Made by a program: the position numbers and the translations under genes
Source of the DNA: Moesziomyces globuligerus
Lineage: Eukaryota; Basidiomycota; Ustilaginomycetes; Ustilaginales; Ustilaginaceae
Direction: 5' to 3'
DNA length: 64,000 bases
NCBI GenBank assembly: GCA_030849465.1
Contig: JARVLF010000009.1
Span: 248,001-312,000, forward strand
Shown: piece by piece, positions 5,412 through 64,000 of the stretch
How positions within the stretch are numbered: position 1 is the stretch's first letter
Layout of the letters: every line of letters begins with the position of its first letter
The notes under the pieces: model-generated
What the model was told of the DNA's origin: nothing
Databases searched by the model: none
Seen by the model: only the letters and a program-made list of their open reading frames with translations

Positions 5412-8400
5412 ATGCCCATCTGCGGCTCCTCCCACGTCCGCAACGAGGCCGCCGACAAGGCGCATCTCTCGGCGGGCTCCCAGATCGGCTCCACACAGGA
5501 TGCGCGTCCACAGGCCACGCAGCCCACCATCACTTCCGCCGTAGCTGCCGATCCCACCCTAGCACCTTCCGACGCAGCCGACTACCTCTTCCCCGTCCCC
5601 TCCGCCGCAAAGCGCGGCGTCATCCGCTTCAAGATCAAGGAGCAGCTCGAAGAGGGCAGGGGCAAGCACTGGGTCTGGGACAAGGGCGCCGTCCACCAAG
5701 GAAATCGCGAGCCCGACGACCACGAGCTCGACACGGTCCGTAAACGCTATGGATACAAGCCTGCCGACCAGGGCGGGCCCTCCCGCCTCTACCTCATGGT
5801 CCTCGCAGACTGCCTCCTCCCGCTCCCTCGCAACCCCATGTCCGGCGTCGTCTCACCTCCACTCCTCGCAACCACCGGCATCGTCCCGCTCTCCATCTTC
5901 TCCACAGGTCCCGACATCATCGGCCACTACTACGACTGCATCGTAGCAGCTAGGAGGGAGGTCATCCTCCTCACAAACTACTGGCAGGGCGGCAAAAACG
6001 TAGATCGCATCGCAGACGCACTCCGCGAGCTCAACAAGCGTGTCCTTCAGCGGCGCAAGGCTCGCGCCCTCAAGGCGAGGCGCAACGGCACTTCCACCCC
6101 CGCCGACGCGCCCCCAAATCCTTCCAACACGCCCCAGGTCGAGAAGGCCGCCAAGCAACAAGACGATCTGCTCGAGAAGCAGGGCGCTCCCGGCTCCATC
6201 GCTCGCGCCGGCAAGGACGACGTCAAGCTCGCCAGCGACCCAGACCAAGACCTCGACATCGAGCTCGCCGCCCCCACCGCAGAGGAGCGCGTCGTCGTCA
6301 AGCTCATGTGGGACCGGGGCCCCCAAACCCTCGCCGACCTCTTCCGCCTCCGCAAGCCCGTGCCTCCAAGCATGTGGAAGTCCAACGGCCTCCCCACAGA
6401 GGACGAGATCCCCAACCTCACCGTCGAGATCCTCAACTACCACCGCCCCCTCATGGGCACCTTCCACGCAAAGCTCCTCATCGTCGACCGCCAGGTTGCC
6501 CTCATCAACTCCAACAACATCCAGGACCGCCCCAACATTGAAGCCTGCATCCGCCTCGAAGGCGACATTGTCAACTCGGTCTACGACCACGCGCTCATCA
6601 GCTGGGGCAACCGCCTCCAACCCCCGCTCCCCTGCCTCACCGCACCCGCGCCCGTCGCCCCTTCCCCCGCCGCCTTCATGTCCGGCGACCAGAGCTCCCT
6701 CCCTTCCCTCACCGTAGAGAAGCTGAAGCAGCTCGCCCTCAACGTCCGCCAGCGCCTCCACGACGAGGACACCGCCACCGAGGACGAAAAGGAGAGGAGT
6801 CTGCAGAGCCCCATCAACTTTAGCTTTGGCGACGTCGTAGACCAGATGAGGCGTAGAGACAGCTTCGGCACCAAAGCCGGCGCCTCGCCCGTCCGCAACG
6901 CTCCCCCAGAACCACGCGTAGACAGCGACAAGGCCGCCCGCAACGCAGGCGCTCTCTGGGCACAGAAGGTGCTTGGCGAACGCTTCTCCCACTTCCAAAG
7001 CACCAGCAACACCAAGACCGACAAACCCGGCGAGGCGCCGCTCGAAAAGGCCGAGCCCGCATCCTCACCCTCGCATCCTCGCAAGCACTTTGCCGACGTC
7101 GTCGAGGCGCTCATGATGAAGGAGGGCCACAAGCCACCCGCCTGGGCCGAGGGCGCGCTCGAGGTCTTTGGCCTCGGCCAGAGCAGCTCCAAGAACGTCG
7201 CCCAGGAGGTCCGCCGCAATCCTCGTCCCAAGACCACCCTCGCCTCCGGCGCCAACATCCCCACCTCGGTCGCCGAAGAGGACTACGCAGAACAGCCCGA
7301 CTGGCGAAGGTCCATCGAGATCGACGAGGAGAGCCTCGAGGACGGCGTCGGAAACGCCCGCAGCCACACGGCCGTCGACGGCGCCGCGTCGCCCAAGCTC
7401 GCTCTCAGCACCACGGAAAGCGAGGACACCTCCCCGGTCAACAATGCATCCAAAGATACCACTCCTGAGGCCGGGGCTGTGCCACTCAAGCTCACTATCC
7501 CTTCGAAAGAGGATACGGCTGTCGCCGCTCCGCCGATCAACAATGAGATCTTGCATGCCAACAAGGAGGCGGCCGCCAACCCCGAGAAGGAGTTGGCCGC
7601 CGCCGCCAAGGACGACGAGGGTGTTCCTGGATCCGTGGGCTACCGACGCGTCCACCGCCGCACGCTCTCGCAGATCTCCAAGTCGTCGGCTGCCGAGCGG
7701 CTGAGCGCCATCACCAAGTCGCTCGACTTTGCCAACAACTCCAAGGTGCAGGGCGAGATCACCGCCGAGCACCTCTCCGACGAGAAGCTGCAGGCGCTCA
7801 ACGACGTGCTCGACTTCCAACCCTACGTCTTTCACCGGCCGCACGAGCCGGTCCCCATGGCCCTCGTCAACCGACGACCCCACGGCACGCCGGGACACTC
7901 GGACATCCGCAATCCGCAGGACGCCGCGTGGCTCGCCGGCTTCCGATATGCCAAGCGCCACATCTTTATCCAATCGCCCACGCTCAATGCGTCGCCCATC
8001 AAGGCCGCCGTGCTGGCGGCGGTGCGACGCCACGTCAAGGTGGAGCTCTGGCTCGACTTGGGCTTCAACGACAAGTCCGAGTCGATGCCATTCCAGGGCG
8101 GCACCAACGAGCAGGTGGTCACCGCCTTTTACCGGCAGCTGCGCCGCGAGGGCAAGGGCGACGAGCAGTACCTCGAGGTCTACTGGTATACGGGCAAGGA
8201 CATGACGCGCCCGCTCAACGCCGTGAGGAAGCAGCGCAACTGCCACGTCAAGTTCGCCGCGTTCGACGGCCAGGTCGCCGTGCTCGGCTCGGGCAACCAG
8301 GACACGCAGTCGTGGTTCCACTCGCAGGAGATCAACGTCATGGTCGACTCGAAGCAGATCGTAGACGAGTGGATGGCCGCGCTCAACCGCAACCAGAGCA

Positions 8401-36531: not shown

Positions 36532-37707
36532 ATGATTCGCATACGCCATCCGCAAGGCACAAGCTCCTTTCCGCTCGACGATCGCACCACGCTCTCGGCA
36601 CTGTACGAGGGGATCGAGCGCGAGTGCGGCATCGCGCCAGCGGATCAGGAGCTCAAGATCGGCTATCCGCCCCGAGCGCTCGCGCTCGACGCACTCGAAG
36701 GCAGTACGCTCCTCAGCTCGGATGCGGTCGGGATCAAGAAGGGCGAGCAGGTGATCGTGGCGCGTCGAGCGTCGAGCAGAGCTCCGACTGATGGAGCAGG
36801 AGCAGGAGCAGGGGCGAGTGGGTCGGGACAGTACGGCGCATCGACCTCCTCGTTCGGGGCTCTGGGAGGGCCCAAGCCGATCGTATCGACGGCCACCGGT
36901 CCAAGGTCGTACGGTCTCGGAGCACGGACACTGCAGGACGGGCTCACGGCTCGCAATCCCGCCGCGCCCGCATCTACATCTGCGTCAAGCGCGGCAAGCC
37001 GCCCGCGTGCGTCTGCACGAGCGGACAAGGTGACAGACGGCTCGGTCAGCGTACCACTGCCATCGGGCCAGGGCCATCTAGCGCTCAAGGTGGTGCCGGA
37101 CGACAATTCGTGTCTGTTCAACTCGGTCGGGTTTGTGTTTGAGCATCGGCTCGGCTCGGACCTCTGCAGCGGACTGCGCTCGACCGTCGCCGAGGCGATC
37201 CGGTCCGACCCGACCTCGTATCCGGACATCGTGCTCGGCCAGCCGCGCGACCGCTACGTTGCCAAGATCCTCTTGCCCCAGACCTGGGGTGGCGCGATCG
37301 AGCTCTCGGTGCTGGCGACGCACTTTGGCGTCGAACTCACCTCGATCGACGTCGCCTCGGGCACGCTGCATCGCTTCGGCGAAGATCGCAACTTGCCCAA
37401 CCGGGCCATCCTCATCTACTCGGGCATCCACTACGACGCCGTCGCCCTCGTAGACCATCCCGCAGCACCGCTCGAAAGCGGTACGACCATCTTCCCCAAC
37501 CTTGCCGCGGCAGGCGTGGACGATGATCAGGATCCCGTCCTCGCCGCTGCCAAGCAGCTAGCAACCGAGCTGAGGCAGAGGAGGTACTACACGGATACGG
37601 CTAGCTTCCGCCTCGCGTGCAAGACGTGCGGCACCAAGCTGACCGGCGAGAAGCAGGCCGTAGAACACGCCAAGTCCACCGGCCACGGCGACTTTGGCGA
37701 GGTCTGA
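36532..37707 (+). CDS. OTU1: OTU1/YOD1-type deubiquitinase
   Basis: OTU1 is a cysteine protease that trims ubiquitin chains from Cdc48/p97 substrates, for example in ER-associated degradation. The 391 residues hold all three expected parts: a UBX-like N-terminal domain (1-78) that binds Cdc48, an OTU domain (about 183-315) and a C-terminal C2H2 zinc finger (Cys363, Cys366, His379, His385). The catalytic Cys194 lies in DDNSCLF and the catalytic His300 in GIHYDAV. A Ser/Ala/Gly-rich linker (79-180) joins the UBX-like and OTU domains. The start at 36532 opens the UBX-like fold directly. The frame is open 21 codons upstream without homology. Confidence 0.94.
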   Translation: MIRIRHPQGTSSFPLDDRTTLSALYEGIERECGIAPADQELKIGYPPRALALDALEGSTLLSSDAVGIKKGEQVIVARRASSRAPTDGAGAGAGASGSGQYGASTSSFGALGGPKPIVSTATGPRSYGLGARTLQDGLTARNPAAPASTSASSAASRPRASARADKVTDGSVSVPLPSGQGHLALKVVPDDNSCLFNSVGFVFEHRLGSDLCSGLRSTVAEAIRSDPTSYPDIVLGQPRDRYVAKILLPQTWGGAIELSVLATHFGVELTSIDVASGTLHRFGEDRNLPNRAILIYSGIHYDAVALVDHPAAPLESGTTIFPNLAAAGVDDDQDPVLAAAKQLATELRQRRYYTDTASFRLACKTCGTKLTGEKQAVEHAKSTGHGDFGEV

Positions 37708-37993
37708 AAAGAATCGACGCTTCCGGCGCATTGCACTGGACAATCGTAGACCCGCATGCATCGGATCGCGACGGCCAAGTTGCATATTTCCACAAGCAAG
37801 CAGTTTGCCAGTGGCTGCAAGGTGGCATGGCAAGTGTGGCGTCGAGGAGAGTCGTGTGGATCTGGAAAACCTGGATCGGTGGTGAGCTACCTTGCAGACA
37901 TGCAGGCGAGGAGCCTTCGTGGCGTGCTCAGCTCTAGGGCGGGTGGCGGAATCGGAGTCCGGCGATGCCTCTCTCCGTTCCGGCTGCCTGAAG

Positions 37994-38002
37994 TCCCTTT
38001 GT
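37994..38002 (-). promoter_or_regulatory. Pheromone response element, copy 1
   Basis: An exact reverse match to ACAAAGGGA, the binding site of the HMG-box regulator Prf1 in Ustilago maydis. It lies 684 bp upstream of the esterase start and within the 13-mer GTCCCTTTGTTCG that copies 2 and 4 share. Confidence 0.6.
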
Positions 38003-38076
38003 TCGCCTGCCGTTGCAGACGGCCGGAGCGCAACAGCCGTGGCACTTGAAAGGGACCTGCTCCTTCTGCCGGGCGA

Positions 38077-38085
38077 ACAAAGGGA
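38077..38085 (+). promoter_or_regulatory. Pheromone response element, copy 2
   Basis: An exact forward match to ACAAAGGGA, 601 bp before the esterase start. The flanks match copies 1 and 4 (CGA before, C after), giving the same 13-mer in inverse orientation. Confidence 0.6.
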
Positions 38086-38170
38086 CTCTGTTCTGCGATC
38101 CGACGGAGAAGGATGTGGTTGGTGGAGACGCCACCAATCCGCTGCGTTGTCGCGTGGCAAATGCGCCACC

Positions 38171-38179
38171 TCCCTTTGT
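38171..38179 (-). promoter_or_regulatory. Pheromone response element, copy 3
   Basis: An exact reverse match to ACAAAGGGA, 507 bp before the esterase start. The flanks differ from the other three copies. Confidence 0.55.
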
Positions 38180-38504
38180 TGTTTGATGCCGTGCAGATGC
38201 TTCGATGCAGCTCGACGTCGAGTCTCGTCGCGCCACCCCATGCAGCGACATGCCGGAATGGGCGCTTGGACCCTTGCCCTCGCCCGACGTGCCTGCACGG
38301 GCGGCTCGCTAGTCCGAGAAGGACACATGGTCCGTCGAACACCTCTGGCCCTTTGTCGCGGATTGGATGGACGAGGCAAAGTGTGGTACGCAGCAGGGTG
38401 GTACTGAGTGTGCAGGCGCTGCATGCGCTTCATTCGCCCGACGGACGGTGGGGATCGTCATGCATCGTTTGCCGGTGCCCGCGCCGAGGCAAACGCCCAA
38501 AAAG

Positions 38505-38513
38505 TCCCTTTGT
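38505..38513 (-). promoter_or_regulatory. Pheromone response element, copy 4
   Basis: An exact reverse match to ACAAAGGGA with the full shared 13-mer. It is 173 bp before the esterase start and about 60 bp before the TATA-like box, the best position for direct activation. Confidence 0.6.
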
Positions 38514-38573: not shown

Positions 38574-38579
38574 TATAAG
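38574..38579 (+). promoter_or_regulatory. TATA-like box of the esterase gene
   Basis: TATAAG lies 104 bp upstream of the esterase ATG, a normal spacing for fungal promoters with a 40-70 bp leader. Confidence 0.45.
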
Positions 38580-38677: not shown

Positions 38678-40462
38678 ATGACCTTGATCAGCTCTCTCCT
38701 CTGCCTGGCGTGCAGCTTGGTCACCTGCGCACGCCTGTGCGCCGGGATGCCGGTGCTCACGTGTCCCGCACCCCGCCGATGCCAGCTCGCCGATCCGCTC
38801 CAAGTCCACCTCGCGCTCGGCACGGTGCGGGGAGCCAAGACGGCGTACGGTTCGCAGCGATTCACGCTGCCCTATGCGGAGCCTCCGGTAGGGGCGCTTC
38901 GATTCGCATCTCCACAGCCCCTCACCGCTCTGCCCAACGCCACGCAGGGTGTGTACGATGCGACGCAGCTGCCGAAAGCATGCATGCAGCCGCCGGACGC
39001 GCGCTACGGTATCGCAGCCGACAAGGTCAGCGAGGACTGTCTGTACCTCAACGTCTTCCGCCCGGCGGCTTCGACGGCGGGTCCGCTGCCCGTGCTCGTG
39101 TGGGTGCATGGCGGGAGTTTTGTCGCTGGCTCTTCCACAGCACCGGGACTCGACGCATCGTACCTCGCCGCACAGCACAACGTCGTTGTCGTCACGATCC
39201 AGTACCGTCTGGGAATGTTTGGCTTCTTCTCCCCCGCGCAGCTCACCGACGAGTCGCACGCCGACGGCGCAACGAAGATCGAGGGCAATCAGGGCGTGAG
39301 GGATGCGATCGAGGCGCTGCAGTTCGTGCGCGACCACATCGGCGCGTTTGGCGGCGATGCCGGCAGCATCACGCTGGCTGGCCAGAGCAGCGGAGCGCAT
39401 CTCATCCGTACGCTGCTTTCGACGCCTACGGCGGCGAATCTGTTCCACAAGGCGGTCCTGCATTCGGACCCGGCCAACTTCGGTACGCAGTCGGCGGGCA
39501 CGAGCGATGCGGTGAGCGGGTACGCGCTGGGCCAGACGGGCTGCACGGAGCTGACGTGCCTGCGTGCGCTGTCGGCGGCCGAGATTCTGGATGCCAGCAT
39601 GCAGACGGTGCAGGCGGGGCCGAGCATCGATGCGGCCGTGGCCGTGTCGGAGGTGTGGCGACCCTTTGTGGGAGAGCTGACGGCTGCGCCGTTCGAGGCG
39701 GATCCGACAGTGGCCGCGGGCAAGGCGCTGGTGGTGACGAGCGTCGAGAACGAGGCGGGGTCGGTGGTGGGTGCTATGCTGCTGCCGACGGGGACGGATG
39801 CCGGGTCGGCGCAGCTGCGTGCGTGGCCGCTGTCGCTATCGCGCGAGCAGCTGCTGGAACAGATGTTCAACGGCGCGCGCGGTCAGCTGCTCGCATCGGC
39901 CGCACAGTACGCCATGACCACCAACGTCTCGGCCTACCCGAGGCCCGTTCAAGTCAAGCTCTACTCGCACGCGGACGATGGCCTGAGAAGGAACCTCGAG
40001 GCTGTGCTGACGCAGGGCATGTTCACCTGCGCGGCCTGGTACAATGCGCAGCGCTACGCTGCCGTCGGCGCGGTGTACGTGGGCCTCTTCGAGCGCGGCC
40101 TCACCTACGCCTCGAACAAAGACAACGACTACTGCACCCAGACCAAGGTCTGCCACGAGGACGACATCCAGCTGGTCTTTGTCGACCCGGCTCGGATCGA
40201 CGCTGCGCTGCGCGAGTTGGTGCAGGAGGTCCAGGCTCGCTGGATCGCCTTTATGCGCACCGGCAACCCCAACACGGCCAACTACGCTGCCTGGCAGACC
40301 GTCGGCACCAGCAGCCAGTCGGCACGCGTCCTGCGTCTCGGCCTGCCATCCTCGACGACCGGCTCTACGCCGGACGACGTCTCGCTACAGTCCGGCCAGT
40401 ATGCGGGCTGCGGACAGGTGTGGGCCGCGGCCGCCCAATTCGACTGGCAGCTCTACGCATGA
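38678..40462 (+). CDS. Secreted type B carboxylesterase/lipase
   Basis: The family hydrolyses carboxylic esters with a Ser-Glu/Asp-His triad. From the ATG at 38678 the protein has 594 residues and begins with a signal peptide (hydrophobic core about 2-17, Ala/Cys-rich end). Family marks are EDCLYLNVFRP (120-130), the oxyanion loop HGGSF (144-148) and the nucleophile elbow GQSSG (235-239, Ser237; the usual sequence is GESAG). The His is probably in CHEDD near 501-505 and the acid in VENEAGS near 365-371. Many Cys fit disulfides of an exported enzyme. The frame is open 13 codons upstream, but starting there would put a basic segment before the signal peptide. The promoter with four pheromone response elements suggests a role during mating or early infection. 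Confidence 0.9.
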   Translation: MTLISSLLCLACSLVTCARLCAGMPVLTCPAPRRCQLADPLQVHLALGTVRGAKTAYGSQRFTLPYAEPPVGALRFASPQPLTALPNATQGVYDATQLPKACMQPPDARYGIAADKVSEDCLYLNVFRPAASTAGPLPVLVWVHGGSFVAGSSTAPGLDASYLAAQHNVVVVTIQYRLGMFGFFSPAQLTDESHADGATKIEGNQGVRDAIEALQFVRDHIGAFGGDAGSITLAGQSSGAHLIRTLLSTPTAANLFHKAVLHSDPANFGTQSAGTSDAVSGYALGQTGCTELTCLRALSAAEILDASMQTVQAGPSIDAAVAVSEVWRPFVGELTAAPFEADPTVAAGKALVVTSVENEAGSVVGAMLLPTGTDAGSAQLRAWPLSLSREQLLEQMFNGARGQLLASAAQYAMTTNVSAYPRPVQVKLYSHADDGLRRNLEAVLTQGMFTCAAWYNAQRYAAVGAVYVGLFERGLTYASNKDNDYCTQTKVCHEDDIQLVFVDPARIDAALRELVQEVQARWIAFMRTGNPNTANYAAWQTVGTSSQSARVLRLGLPSSTTGSTPDDVSLQSGQYAGCGQVWAAAAQFDWQLYA

Positions 40463-41109: not shown

Positions 41110-42081
41110 ATGCCGTCTCCTGTTCGTGCTAGCGCTTCACTCCGCAGACTCTCCCAGACCGCTCGCCAGCTGTCCAACAGTCTCCACACCATGGCTTCCG
41201 CCCAGGACTACACGACGCGCGCCGTCGGAGCGCCCAACACGCTCGACTACCGCGTCTTCCTCGAGAACACCAAGACCGGCCTGCCCGCGTCGCCGTTCCA
41301 CGACGTGCCGCTGTTCGCCGACGAGAGCAAGACGATCCTCAACATGATTGTCGAGATCCCGCGCTGGACCAACGCCAAGGTGGAGATCAGCAAGGAGGAG
41401 AACTTCAACTGCTTCCTGCAGGACACCAAGAAGGGCAAGCTGCGCTTTGTGCGCAACTGCTTCCCGCACAAGGGCTACATCTGGAACTACGGCGCCTTCC
41501 CGCAGACGTGGGAGGACCCGCACCACACGCACCCGGACACCAAGGCCAAGGGCGACAACGATCCGCTCGACGTCTGCGAGATCGGCGAGCAGGTGGGCTA
41601 CACGGGCCAGATCAAGCAGGTCAAGGTGCTCGGCGTCATGGCGCTGCTCGACGAGGGCGAGACCGACTGGAAGGTCATCGTCATCGACGTCAACGATCCG
41701 CTCGCCGCCAAGCTCAACGACATTGAGGACGTCGAACGCCACCTCCCCGGCCTCATCCGCGCCACCAACGAGTGGTTCCGCATCTACAAGATCCCCGACG
41801 GCAAGCCAGAGAACCAGTTTGCCTTCTCCGGCGAGGCAAAGAACCGCAAGTACGCCACCGAGATCGTCCACGAGTGCAACGAGGCCTGGAAGCGCCTCAT
41901 TTCGGGCCAGGCCGACGCCGGCGACATCAGCCTCACCAACTCGTCCGTCCAGGGCTCCAAGGGCTTTGTCGGCGCCAACGACGCCGCCGTCACCAGCGTG
42001 CCCAAGGCCAACCCCCTGCCCCCTGCCCCCATCGATGCCAGCATCGACAAGTGGTTCTACATCTCGTCCTCGTCCAACTAA
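41110..42081 (+). CDS. IPP1: Family I inorganic pyrophosphatase, two possible starts
   Basis: The enzyme splits pyrophosphate and drives biosynthesis forward. From the ATG at 41191 it has 296 residues, close to yeast Ipp1 (287). The metal-binding block [12 protein letters not shown] (Asp122, Asp124, Asp127) and the early EIPRWTNAK segment are intact. The frame also opens at 41110, adding 27 residues with four Arg and no acidic residue (an [15 protein letters not shown] helix), like a mitochondrial presequence. The first ATG has T at -3; the second sits in CACC-ATGG, a strong context. Cytosolic and mitochondrial forms could come from one gene; yeast uses two genes (IPP1 and PPA2). The cytosolic form is surely the main product. 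Confidence 0.93.
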
Positions 42082-55761: not shown

Positions 55762-57780
55762 TCACAGCGAGGTGACGGTGGCTGTCGCGTTCCACATCTG
55801 GCCGGCGGCGATGAGCTTTCGGACGGCCTCTTCGCAAAAGATGACGCCCATCTTGGTCGAGCAGATGCCAGCGGGTCCGCCCTGATCGCCACCGCCCGAC
55901 CTCGACTTTCGATCGCCGACGCGCCACCAACCCACCAAGCTCGAGGTGTTCTTGGCGGGAGCGACGAGCGATTCGCGTTGCTCCTGCGCCCAGCCGTCTA
56001 CATCCGCATGCAGCCTCCAGAAGCTCGAGAGGACCGCGGTAGGACGCCTAGCCAGCAGCGTCGCGTACTCGGAGCTCGAGTTGGTGAGACGCGCATAGTT
56101 GGGACTCAACCGGCCGAGGTTGGCATCCAGCCGTTCGAGCCAGGACGACATGAGCAGTCGAGGGTTGGAACCTCCAGCGCCGTAGATGCGCCATCCTCCA
56201 CCTGCCAGGTCGTTCTTGCGTGCCGAGCGGCCACGTTCACCGGGAGCGAGGATGCGATCCACGACCGATTTGCCGTGCAGCATGCCAATGATCCGAGTGA
56301 CGCCGATCGGCTCAAGCAGAGCGGGAAGCAGGTCGTAGAACAGCGAGCCAAAGGCACCGTGGCGCCGAGCGAGGTAGCCGGCGCGTGCACCCGAGCCGGG
56401 CGAGACCTTGTCCGTGTACCACGAAGCCGGAGTCTCTGCATCGATGTGGAGGAAGGAATGGACGAGGTGCGGATGCTGAACGGCAAAGTCTTGGGCAAAG
56501 AGATGGCCGTAGCCGGTGGATACGAGCATGAACTTGCCGAGAGTCTCGCCATCGCCCTTCTTCTTCTTGTTGTTGCGCTGGAGGATGCCGTCGTGGCTGG
56601 CACCGCCATGAGGGTCGACCTGTCCCGAGTTCTGCAGCGCGTGGTAGAGGGCTTCGGTCTGCAGGCGGACCGAGGTTGGCTGGTAGACAAAGTCGGAGTG
56701 TCCGTAGCCGATGCGGTCCCAGAAGCAGACGCGGGTGAGGGCGAGATGGCCGTCGTCGCCGCCGCCAATGTGCGAGGCGGATCTGGCGACCATCTCGCGG
56801 AGGAACTGAGCGGCGATGACGCCCGAGACGCCGCGTTCGGACATGACGAGAGCGGTGGGTGTGACGGCCGAGGTGTTGTGGGACTTGAGCGCGCCGGGCT
56901 GGGAGGGAGCATCCTCGCAGGCGAGATGGAGGCGGAAGGAGACGGGGTAGGGATTGACGTCGGCCGGATCTTGAGGATAGACGGGCTGCTTTGTGAGCGA
57001 GGTGGGATGGACGAGGGTGAGGTTTCCGAGGGGTCTGAAGCGCGAGTCGGCGGCGTCGAGGACGAGGTCGAAGGTGACGAGGGCCGAGGCGAGAGCGATG
57101 GTGAGGCAGCCAAAGATGGCCCAGAGGAGCTTGAAGCGTCGGGACCACTTTGCCTGAGCACGGGCGAGAGGGACCTCGGTGACGATGGGCGCGCCGACGT
57201 CTGGGTTGAGGGTGAAGGGGATCTTCTGCTTCTGCAAGTGGTAGGAGGAGAGCAAGGCCCAGAGGGTGGACAAGAGGCAGAGACCGGCGGAGAGGAAGCC
57301 GAGGTAGGAGTGGGTGATGCGGAATTCGGGGACGGCGGCGAGGAGGATGCCATCTGCGATGGTGAAGCAGAGGACAAAGAGGTGGAAGATGTTTGTGGAG
57401 TGGGAAGCGAGCTCGAAGAAGAGGAGGCCGGGCGCGAGCATGGAGAGGGAGATGATGCAGAACCACAAAGGGAGGAGGGCAGGAGAGCGATGAGGTGGCA
57501 GGAGGAGGGGGATGGGTTCGAAGTAGTTGATGGCGAGAAGGATGAGGAGGACGGTCACGGGGAGGAGGAGGAGGACGCCGGTAGCAAAGTAGAAGCGGAG
57601 GAAAAAGGTGAGGTAGGGCGATCTCCTGTGCGGGCGGGTTGCAGGCGGTGGTGCGGGCTGCTGGACGGGGATGGAGCGATAGTCGGGGCTCTGTGAGGAG
57701 GCGTCCGGGAGCAGCGGCTGGCGCTCGTCGTCACGCGCTCGATCTGCGGCCGACGAGGCTGCAGCGGCCTTGGGAGCCAT
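55762..57780 (-). CDS. Multi-pass membrane protein with alpha/beta-hydrolase fold, probable pseudoenzyme
   Basis: The start at 57780 gives 672 residues. The first half has an acidic, Pro-rich cytosolic start and about seven hydrophobic helices (from about 58 to 265). It resembles the fungal membrane family labelled DUF2417, in which such a region precedes a hydrolase domain. The second half carries an alpha/beta-hydrolase pattern: FWDRIGYGHSD (as in YDRxGxGxSD) and a strand-turn-helix at FMLVSTGYGHLFAQDF. At that turn the usual GHSxGG is replaced by STGYGH, so Gly occupies the place of the nucleophile Ser. I infer a membrane-bound, possibly inactive hydrolase. Fungal relatives have been described as mitochondrial membrane proteins; location here is unknown. 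No intron is needed. Confidence 0.8.
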   Translation of the reverse strand: MAPKAAAASSAADRARDDERQPLLPDASSQSPDYRSIPVQQPAPPPATRPHRRSPYLTFFLRFYFATGVLLLLPVTVLLILLAINYFEPIPLLLPPHRSPALLPLWFCIISLSMLAPGLLFFELASHSTNIFHLFVLCFTIADGILLAAVPEFRITHSYLGFLSAGLCLLSTLWALLSSYHLQKQKIPFTLNPDVGAPIVTEVPLARAQAKWSRRFKLLWAIFGCLTIALASALVTFDLVLDAADSRFRPLGNLTLVHPTSLTKQPVYPQDPADVNPYPVSFRLHLACEDAPSQPGALKSHNTSAVTPTALVMSERGVSGVIAAQFLREMVARSASHIGGGDDGHLALTRVCFWDRIGYGHSDFVYQPTSVRLQTEALYHALQNSGQVDPHGGASHDGILQRNNKKKKGDGETLGKFMLVSTGYGHLFAQDFAVQHPHLVHSFLHIDAETPASWYTDKVSPGSGARAGYLARRHGAFGSLFYDLLPALLEPIGVTRIIGMLHGKSVVDRILAPGERGRSARKNDLAGGGWRIYGAGGSNPRLLMSSWLERLDANLGRLSPNYARLTNSSSEYATLLARRPTAVLSSFWRLHADVDGWAQEQRESLVAPAKNTSSLVGWWRVGDRKSRSGGGDQGGPAGICSTKMGVIFCEEAVRKLIAAGQMWNATATVTSL

Positions 57781-61323: not shown

Positions 61324-62285
61324 CGATGCAGAGACGGGAAGCTGTAGTCGGCTGGCGGTCAAGGTTGCTGTTGGTTGGAAGGAAGGGTCGGCTCAGCCAG
61401 AAGAGGCGAGGTGCCGTTGACAAACTCCACTTGGAATTCGCGCTTAGACCCTGAGTCCGCAGGGCGCGTCTCGTCATCTTGACTAATCCAGATCTCCGCC
61501 TCTGCAAGCTCGAGGACATTTCTTCATGCTCATCCGCCGACTTGGACTGCAGTCATGCCGAGCTTCTCAGTGCATTCAACCTGGGCGGCTACCAGGGACA
61601 AGCTGCATGACACATGACTGGCCACCCTGCCGGGTAGTCAGGCTGAGACGCAGACCCCTGACCCCGACGCAGTCTCAAGGTGGCGAGAAGCAGCGATTCA
61701 GCAGCCACCTTATGTGGCTAGAAATTATCAGCCCCTCAGCAATCAGCCGTTCCGGAGCGGCTAATTGATTTGTTTGATCGTGAACATCAGCCATTCTGAG
61801 TCGTGATGCAAGTGGCTGCTCGTCGTCAAACGATATGATCAAAAAGTATATTGGTTGGTAATAACTGCCTCACCCATCATGCATAGCACTGGCTTCTCAT
61901 AGCGGATACTCTCGACAAAGTTGGGTCAAGCACTCATCGTCCCCCAGGATTAGAGAGCCGAGTCGATTTGATCACGATTATAGCAGTATGACTGGGTACC
62001 ATGGTGGGAGCCAAGAGCTTCTGTATGCTTCCGAAGAGTATCTTTGAGAGGACCTCCGGCAGTCATTTCACAACTTGATTCAGGAGGACTGCGACACAAA
62101 TTACAATCATGACTTGTTCTTCATTTATGGTCGGATATTATCGATCCCATCCGAGCACGCTTGAGAAGCTTTCCAGCCGTGCAGAATGCATGATAAGCAT
62201 TAGGAGCTTGCGGCAACAAATTGGTTTTACTCACACCAGGAAAGGACGCAAGGTGCGTTCGCCAAGTCACACCTTATCCATCTCT

Positions 62286-62328
62286 GCAGAGCCACTTGTG
62301 GTTCAGAAAACTACTACAGTGGCTCTGC
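62286..62328. repeat. Short inverted repeat (hairpin) with AGCCAC arms
   Basis: An 11-bp perfect inverted repeat, GCAGAGCCACT (62286-62296) and its complement (62318-62328), with a 21-base spacer. It uses the same AGCCAC core as the elements to its right. Confidence 0.7.
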
Positions 62329-62560
62329 GGAACTGCTTCTCGAATCCGATTCGATAACATCATACATCAATGCTGATGCATTTTTGATTCGAAACAGTCA
62401 GATTCTGGCTAAAGAGCAAACACAGAATCTGTCTTATCATGTGAATTACTTTTGGGATCATAAATCTGACGCAATTCTACACCGCACTCATGATTTATCA
62501 GGCCACCATGCATTGGCCCAGATTGTTGAGACCTCAGAAAACGAAATATTGGCCAAACAA

Positions 62561-62802
62561 CATATATCCGAAGAAGCCACGGATGCGGTCGGGATGCGAG
62601 TGCGGGCGCGGTTGGAACGGATTGGGACGGTGTAGGTGGGCTGTAACGTCGCCCAAGCCACCCTCCAAGCCACCCGTAGTGGCTTGATATTCCAAGCCAC
62701 TGGAGTGTGCGTGGGTGGCTTGCAAGTGGCTTGGATCGTTAGCCACCCGTGGTGGCTTAGGGGGTGGCTTGGAAAACGTCACAACCCTATTTCCGGGATA
62801 GG
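62561..62802. mobile_element. MITE-like inverted-repeat element A
   Basis: The right end (62761-62802), read in reverse, matches the left end of element C at 32 of 42 positions without gaps. The inner arms start with TGTAACGT (62642) and TGTGACGT (reverse of about 62775-62782). The left end at 62561 (CATATATCCGAAG) is less certain. The interior is packed with AGCCACC and GGTGGCT. No coding sequence is present. Confidence 0.55.
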
Positions 62803-62849
62803 ATGGCCTAGCAAACTATGAGCTTGCCTTTTGTTTCTCCGGAATAAAT

Positions 62850-63407
62850 CATATCCTGAAGAAAGGCGGCGACCTGGCGAGGAGCAGCCACCCCGGATGG
62901 CTGATGGGTGGCTGATAATTACCAGCCACCAGCGGGGGGTGGCCGCTCTCCGCTAACCCATCCATCCGCAGCCCCTCCTTCCGCAGTCCAGCATCCGCAC
63001 CTCCTCCATCCGCTCTCCATCCATCAGCAGCCTATCCATCCGCACTCCAACCATCAGCAGCGCACAGTGAATAATCATGCTCCTGGAAAGCAAAGCGCTG
63101 AGATACCGGCCAAATAGCTCTGACATATAACCTCAATCGCGCTGAAGTGATGTCTAATACCTTCAAATTGCATACCTGTTGGGTAGCGGTTTTACGCGTG
63201 GCCCGGGTACGGTGTGTGTGTCGAGATGGAGGATGTGTCTGCAGGCCTCAGGTTCGAATTCAGGAGGCGTGTCAATTGTTTTCGAATCTTGGAAAGGAGG
63301 GGTGGCTGCTGCAGAGAAGCCACCCGCCTTAGCCACCCATCAGCCATCGCGCGTGGGTGGCTAATGGGTGGCTGGTCCTTCGCCACCTCGCCACTTTTCA
63401 GGATATG
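62850..63407. mobile_element. MITE-like inverted-repeat element B
   Basis: Ends are an exact 11-bp inverted repeat (CATATCCTGAA at 62850-62860 and its complement at 63397-63407). Inside them an 18-bp exact inverted repeat (62896-62913 with 63331-63348) and further AGCCACC-rich similarity extend the arms to roughly 60-110 bp. The centre contains the ATCCGCA-type tandem repeats (62959-63062). No coding sequence is seen. Confidence 0.6.
62959..63062. repeat. Degenerate tandem repeats of CCATCCGCA / CCATCAGCAGC
   Basis: About eight loosely periodic copies of an ATCCGCA or ATCAGCAGC word in element B. Units differ in length and sequence. Confidence 0.7.
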
Positions 63408-63643
63408 AGTGAGTGAGTCGATGTGAGGACGTGCAAAGTTGGGCCATGTCGTGCATGAGGGGCAGGACGCCTTAGGGAAATTAATTGGTCTAGTGACCGT
63501 TGGGTTGGAAAACTCATGACTGACATTTCTCTCGTCAATTCTCAAAAAAATGATGGTCAAGCCAGCAAACGCAAATCTATCTAGGATCATCCTGCATTAT
63601 TATTCACCTATTGTTGCTGCGGACGAAAATAACCCTAAGGAGG

Positions 63644-63790
63644 CATATCGCGAAAAACGGCTTGTAACATTTTTCAAACCACCCCCTAAGCCACTCACCC
63701 CCAGTGGCTTAATTTGGAAGCCACTACTAAGCCACCCGTAGTGGTTTGCAAGTGGCTTGGCCCATGTTACACTCCGTTTTTCGCGATATG
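63644..63790. mobile_element. MITE-like inverted-repeat element C
   Basis: The cleanest element: 27-bp terminal inverted repeats (63644-63670 and 63764-63790) match at 25 of 27 positions. The outer ends begin CATATCGCG. AGG directly precedes the left end and directly follows the right end, a possible 3-bp target-site duplication. The 93-bp interior carries AGCCAC/GTGGCT words and shares AAGCCACCCGTAGTGG with element A. Confidence 0.7.
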
Positions 63791-64000
63791 AGGTGGCTTA
63801 GCGAAGCAATTTTCGACCATTTTTGACATATATAGCAGTGCCAAAAATTTAGAAATCATGACTGATCATGTTTGCTGAACATATCAAGTGCATGTATGTT
63901 CAAAAAGCCTAATTGAGTCTGCCAAAAGATCCAAGTAAAAATTCGTAAGTGTGGCCATGTACGTCAAAAAGCTCCGAAAATAAAGAACTACCGAAAGGTG

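Follow-up and report, generated by a model that had tools for sequence, protein, structure and literature searches.

A pheromone-element cluster without equal in a smut genome lies upstream of a probably secreted type-B carboxylesterase gene

The DNA analysed here, referred to as the window, is the 64-kb stretch C9:248001-312000 of the Moesziomyces globuligerus genome (18.5 Mb, 24 contigs). A scan of the window locates four exact copies of ACAAAGGGA within 520 bp (37994-38513), at the positions given in the preliminary description, and all of them are confined to the 970-bp gap which leads from an OTU1-type gene to a carboxylesterase gene. Since the two genes lie on one strand, the gap is most simply taken as the promoter of the esterase. 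The features of the region are listed below, in window coordinates.

36532..37707, plus strand: OTU1-type ubiquitin thioesterase, upstream neighbour
37994..38002, minus strand: ACAAAGGGA element 1, in the extended form CGAACAAAGGGACT; arm of a perfect 16-bp inverted repeat
38077..38085, plus strand: ACAAAGGGA element 2, in the extended form; second arm of the 16-bp inverted repeat
38171..38179, minus strand: ACAAAGGGA element 3, without the extended flanks
38348..38356, minus strand: copy of ACAAAGGGA with one mismatch
38505..38513, minus strand: ACAAAGGGA element 4, in the extended form; ends 60 bp before the TATA-like box
38574..38579, plus strand: TATA-like box, TATAAG
38678..40462, plus strand: type-B carboxylesterase (PF00135), 594 aa, single open frame, signal-like N-terminus
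41191..42081, plus strand: inorganic pyrophosphatase, downstream neighbour

The elements start 684, 601, 507 and 173 bp upstream of the esterase ATG, and the 60-bp distance separating the last of them from a TATA-like box, also claimed at the outset, is measured to TATAAG at 38574. A fifth copy of ACAAAGGGA is present in the window at 57465-57473 (plus strand), where it had been placed before; it was then assigned to a coding region, and it does sit within overlapping long candidate frames, which occupy both strands. When the window was shuffled 100 times, ACAAAGGGA was found on average 0.29 times, with a maximum of 2 copies. The 970-bp gap was likewise put through 5000 dinucleotide shuffles: a single copy arose in 28 of them, more than one in none, and the other 4972 lacked the word. 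The cAMP input which had been tentatively attributed to TGACGT words gains no support, as 36 of them occur in the window and 2 of these in the gap. Neither RNA families at gathering score nor tRNAs were found across the 64-kb window. The last portion of the window (62001-64000) has a GC content of 0.494, versus about 0.6 in the rest, and a tandem array is located at 62957-63061.

Over the whole genome ACAAAGGGA occurs 167 times, 79 in forward and 88 in reverse orientation, and the same total was obtained by splitting the word according to its preceding base (74+93 places). The reversed word, used as a control, is found in 57 places. When a span of 600 bp was allowed, 18 clusters of at least two copies were obtained, and the esterase promoter was the sole cluster of four; it is also the only place in the genome where four copies fall within 520 bp, and three of its copies make up the tightest trio, spanning 186 bp. 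Under a span of 1000 bp the b mating locus likewise attains four, spread across 701 bp. In 20000 runs of random placement of 167 sites, four sites within 520 bp were never seen, and three were seen in 41 runs; close pairs number 26, versus a mean of 0.76 under random placement. No pair within 511 bp was found among the 57 places of the reversed word, for a computed expectation of 0.09; with its fewer places, the reversed word is a weaker control than a set of equal number. A chance origin of the cluster is ruled out by the shuffles and by random placement. The genome scan and promoter ranking proposed in the preliminary description single out the esterase promoter, with the a and b loci ranking beside it, and lend partial support to the putative mating- or infection-induced pheromone target suggested there.

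The two mating loci served as internal positive controls. ACAAAGGGA is presented, in the available parts of two papers, as the element bound by Prf1 near smut mating-locus genes (PMC3248468, PMC4466345). At the a locus (C13:804500-812000, L094) the STE3 pheromone receptor gene has three elements in its upstream region, at distances of 177-440 bp from the ATG. Two different pheromone-like frames ending in CaaX are also present (L094 3992-4111, minus strand, and 5872-5991, plus strand), one of which has two elements 359-491 bp upstream. The b locus (C15:1654000-1661500, L095) encodes a homeobox-containing Ustilago mating protein (PF05722) and a divergent homeodomain protein, and contains six elements, including the four in 701 bp and a pair. 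The interval from the bE-like gene to a C1D-type gene holds four of them; the other two fall within or close to the bW-like gene, and the short gap separating the two b genes has none. The exact 9-mer core of the esterase promoter thus recurs at both mating loci of this genome, and it is clustered, in both orientations and upstream of a gene, as at the Prf1-regulated a and b promoters of smut fungi. The distances to the ATG are also similar, 173-684 bp for the esterase and 177-491 bp for the receptor and the pheromone-like frame. The esterase promoter differs from the a and b promoters in the gene that follows, which encodes an esterase instead of a mating-type protein, and in having three copies with a long common flank, absent from the rest of the genome.

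The esterase matches the PF00135 profile over its full length (residues 41-559, E 2.2e-85). Catalytic roles were assigned from this family: no variation is seen at Ser237 or Glu359 across all 18 aligned rows, His493 is conserved in at least 90% of them, one row ending before that position, and the serine motif aligns with that of para-nitrobenzyl esterase. Judged by these residues, the gene codes for a carboxylesterase with its catalytic residues intact. The N-terminus appears hydrophobic by eye and resembles a signal, a helix is modelled at residues 3-19, and the protein probably leaves the cell. For the secreted esterase announced earlier, the enzyme family is confirmed and secretion is probable. 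The best 16 relatives among the matches listed are 51-75% identical, several being annotated as para-nitrobenzyl esterase-related; ten of the 16 carry names of smut fungi and relatives (S. reilianum, U. trichophora, S. scitamineum, U. tritici, P. hubeiensis, S. graminicola, K. brasiliensis, M. pennsylvanicum, T. cyperi and U. loliicola). The closest among the matches listed, 75% identical, is an unnamed protein. The name of U. maydis does not appear among the 120 matches listed, in which many proteins are unnamed, names are shortened and clusters hide members. A scan of viral contigs for DNA of an orthologue revealed no encoded relative.

The relatives of solved structure identified by sequence comparison comprise para-nitrobenzyl esterase, liver carboxylesterase 1 and cholinesterases. 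The predicted structure is of moderate quality (mean pLDDT 70.8), and its fold matches cholinesterases at 24-27% identity. The conserved Ser/Glu/His, the full PF00135 profile and the modelled cholinesterase-like fold make the protein resemble type-B carboxylesterases (para-nitrobenzyl esterase, carboxylesterase 1, cholinesterases), from whose solved cholinesterase members it differs in being only about 26% identical. PF00135 was matched at 12 places in the genome, reduced to 10 matches by dropping two second pieces and keeping two below the family cut-off; only one of the 10, the esterase of the window, has an element within 3 kb upstream.

Taken together, these data lead us to assign a probability of about three in four to the gap being a Prf1-type pheromone-response promoter which drives the type-B carboxylesterase. 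The scheme would follow the route known from U. maydis, outlined in the accessible portions of PMC6918084 and PMC4102580 as pheromone, receptor, MAP kinase and Prf1. Pheromone would be seen by the STE3 receptor, a MAP kinase cascade would activate the HMG factor Prf1, and Prf1 would occupy the ACAAAGGGA elements that precede the TATA box, so that the esterase would be switched on jointly with the pheromone, receptor and b genes. This suggests that the enzyme is made during the courtship of two cells, and it may act in hydrolysis at the plant surface, in remodelling or detoxification, or in cleaving off the pheromone methyl ester.

The kind of promoter is known and its ranking is strong; the gene behind it is unexpected, the densest pheromone-element cluster of the genome being found at a probably exported esterase and not at a mating-type gene. 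Should the esterase respond, the smut pheromone regulon would include an exported enzyme, acting on the pheromone methyl ester or on the plant surface, and either action would tie early mating to extracellular chemistry. The key study of Prf1 targets is reportedly Zarnack 2008. Within the open-licence PMC literature, no paper was found that combines smut, carboxylesterase, pheromone and mating-type, nor one that pairs para-nitrobenzyl esterase with Sporisorium; in the available text of PMC4466345 the sole mention of esterases is a count of carbohydrate esterases.

A candidate for Prf1 itself was sought among the HMG genes, of which 8 were counted from 10 places by dropping two second boxes, the genome total being at least 8. 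Only one of the 8, the 827-aa frame at C10:646614, has an element within 3 kb upstream. Its N-terminal part, which was read, contains an HMG box at residues 128-197. According to the parts available of the respective papers, Prf1 of S. scitamineum has 722 aa and an N-terminal HMG box (PMC6747018), and Prf1 autoactivates via its own promoter (PMC7766764). The position of the box and the element in the upstream region fit Prf1; as a search with the fragment matched two unnamed proteins only, C10:646614 stays a candidate.

The elements might instead be bound mainly by some other factor, either an HMG protein such as Rop1 or a reader of a 13-14-bp form, and the gene would then answer a signal other than pheromone. 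The extended form speaks for such a factor. CGAACAAAGGGACT is common to three of the four elements, and the 13-mer GTCCCTTTGTTCG, already reported to surround three of them, occurs three times in the window, the same three being all those of the genome; the three genomic occurrences of CGAACAAAGGGAC likewise all fall in the esterase promoter. When two mismatches were allowed, the extended pattern gave 429 matches versus 397 for its reversed control, and the flanking bases at 76 sites with readable flanks showed mild raw preferences only. The long form is thus a property of the esterase promoter and not of the element in general, and the fact that neither mating locus carries it could hint at a different binding factor. 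The genome offers at least eight HMG genes from which such a factor could come, and Rop1 is a published HMG regulator of prf1, as stated in the accessible parts of PMC7766764 and PMC3164652. However, the 9-mer core is common to the a and b loci, and element 3 has no long flanks, so that we regard a different main binder as unlikely.

A more specific proposal concerns the substrate. The pheromones of smuts are expected to be peptides that carry a farnesyl group and, at the C-terminus, a methyl ester, and a secreted type-B carboxylesterase, induced by the pheromone, could strip the methyl group, thereby turning the signal off and making its gradient sharper. Yeast Bar1 is a secreted protease degrading a pheromone which is an unmodified peptide. 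If the esterase acted on the pheromone, it would share with Bar1 the logic of a secreted enzyme whose production is triggered by the very signal it eliminates, and would differ from it in being an esterase; it would represent a lipopeptide counterpart of Bar1, with an esterase in place of the protease. The proposal draws on the pheromone-type promoter, on the a-locus CaaX frames, on the chemistry of mushroom pheromones, described as carboxymethylated and farnesylated in the available part of PMC7288658, and on the report, in the portion available of PMC4154947, that the enzyme which demethylates polyisoprenylated proteins as a methyl esterase is carboxylesterase 1, a relative within the same family. 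A signal-damping pheromone methylesterase is nevertheless considered quite improbable.

It is very unlikely that the cluster is a by-product of composition, local duplication or a small repeat, devoid of any regulatory role. Elements 1 and 2 do form a perfect 16-bp inverted repeat, and the stretch 37992-38087, taken as a single strand, folds into a hairpin better than 200 of 200 shuffles. Composition is however excluded by the shuffles and random placement reported above, the repeats found in the gap measure merely 10-21 bp, without long duplications, and outside this promoter the genome contains no further 13-mer copy; for the last two reasons a dispersed or mobile repeat is ruled out as well. 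It is hardly credible that the elements act on some overlooked gene within the gap, small or antisense, and not on the esterase. Nine ATG frames of 35-105 aa are present in the gap or at its margins, and it is overlapped by an antisense frame of 291 aa. None of the nine was flagged for a CaaX end, which speaks against a hidden pheromone gene, and the frames tested have a third-position GC of 0.57-0.65, versus 0.77-0.95 in the three neighbouring genes, a lack of coding bias which speaks against an antisense gene.

For a Prf1-type promoter, the other clusters of the genome are also of relevance. Neighbour genes were read for the 18 clusters less seven two-copy ones (C15:40990, C15:846533, C15:1083630, C16:76919, C17:229179, C18:866530 and C20:181228). 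Equally dense clusters at non-responsive genes, which the preliminary description regarded as contrary evidence, do not occur as four copies in 520 bp, but clusters of three lie beside genes without a known mating role, so that the presence of a cluster may not by itself imply regulation by pheromone. These trios, at C2:273427, C10:630682 and C15:1531787, adjoin genes without a known mating role or family match; C10:630682 has the housekeeping gene for fructose-bisphosphatase on one side, and the three elements at C15:1531787-1531996 (L096), contained in 209 bp, are upstream of a function-unassigned membrane protein with two weak family matches, below cut-off. Genes without a Pfam match adjoin the clusters at C1:235232, C2:273427 and C7:348999. 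The ranked list of element-dense promoters provides candidates that others may test.

Two further gene families were searched for upstream elements. Neither of the 2 matches to ICMT, the enzyme of pheromone methylation, has an element within 3 kb upstream. ABC transporters were matched at 29 places, corresponding to 16 genes when one membrane domain was kept per gene, and in 2 of the 16 an element is found in the 3 kb that precede the domain. A pair of elements at C2:425806-425863 (L018 1501-1556) is located some 0.5 kb upstream of the start of a gene for a full-length ABCB-type transporter, a 1518-aa frame with two membrane domains. P-glycoproteins are the best matches to the first part of this protein, yeast Ste6 being a weaker one (E 7.6e-14), for which reason it is only possibly a pheromone exporter. 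Another pair, at C7:348999-349046 (L049 1464-1510), is found about 0.6 kb before a frame of 167 aa that lacks a Pfam match and whose N-terminus is hydrophobic; it might encode a small secreted protein.
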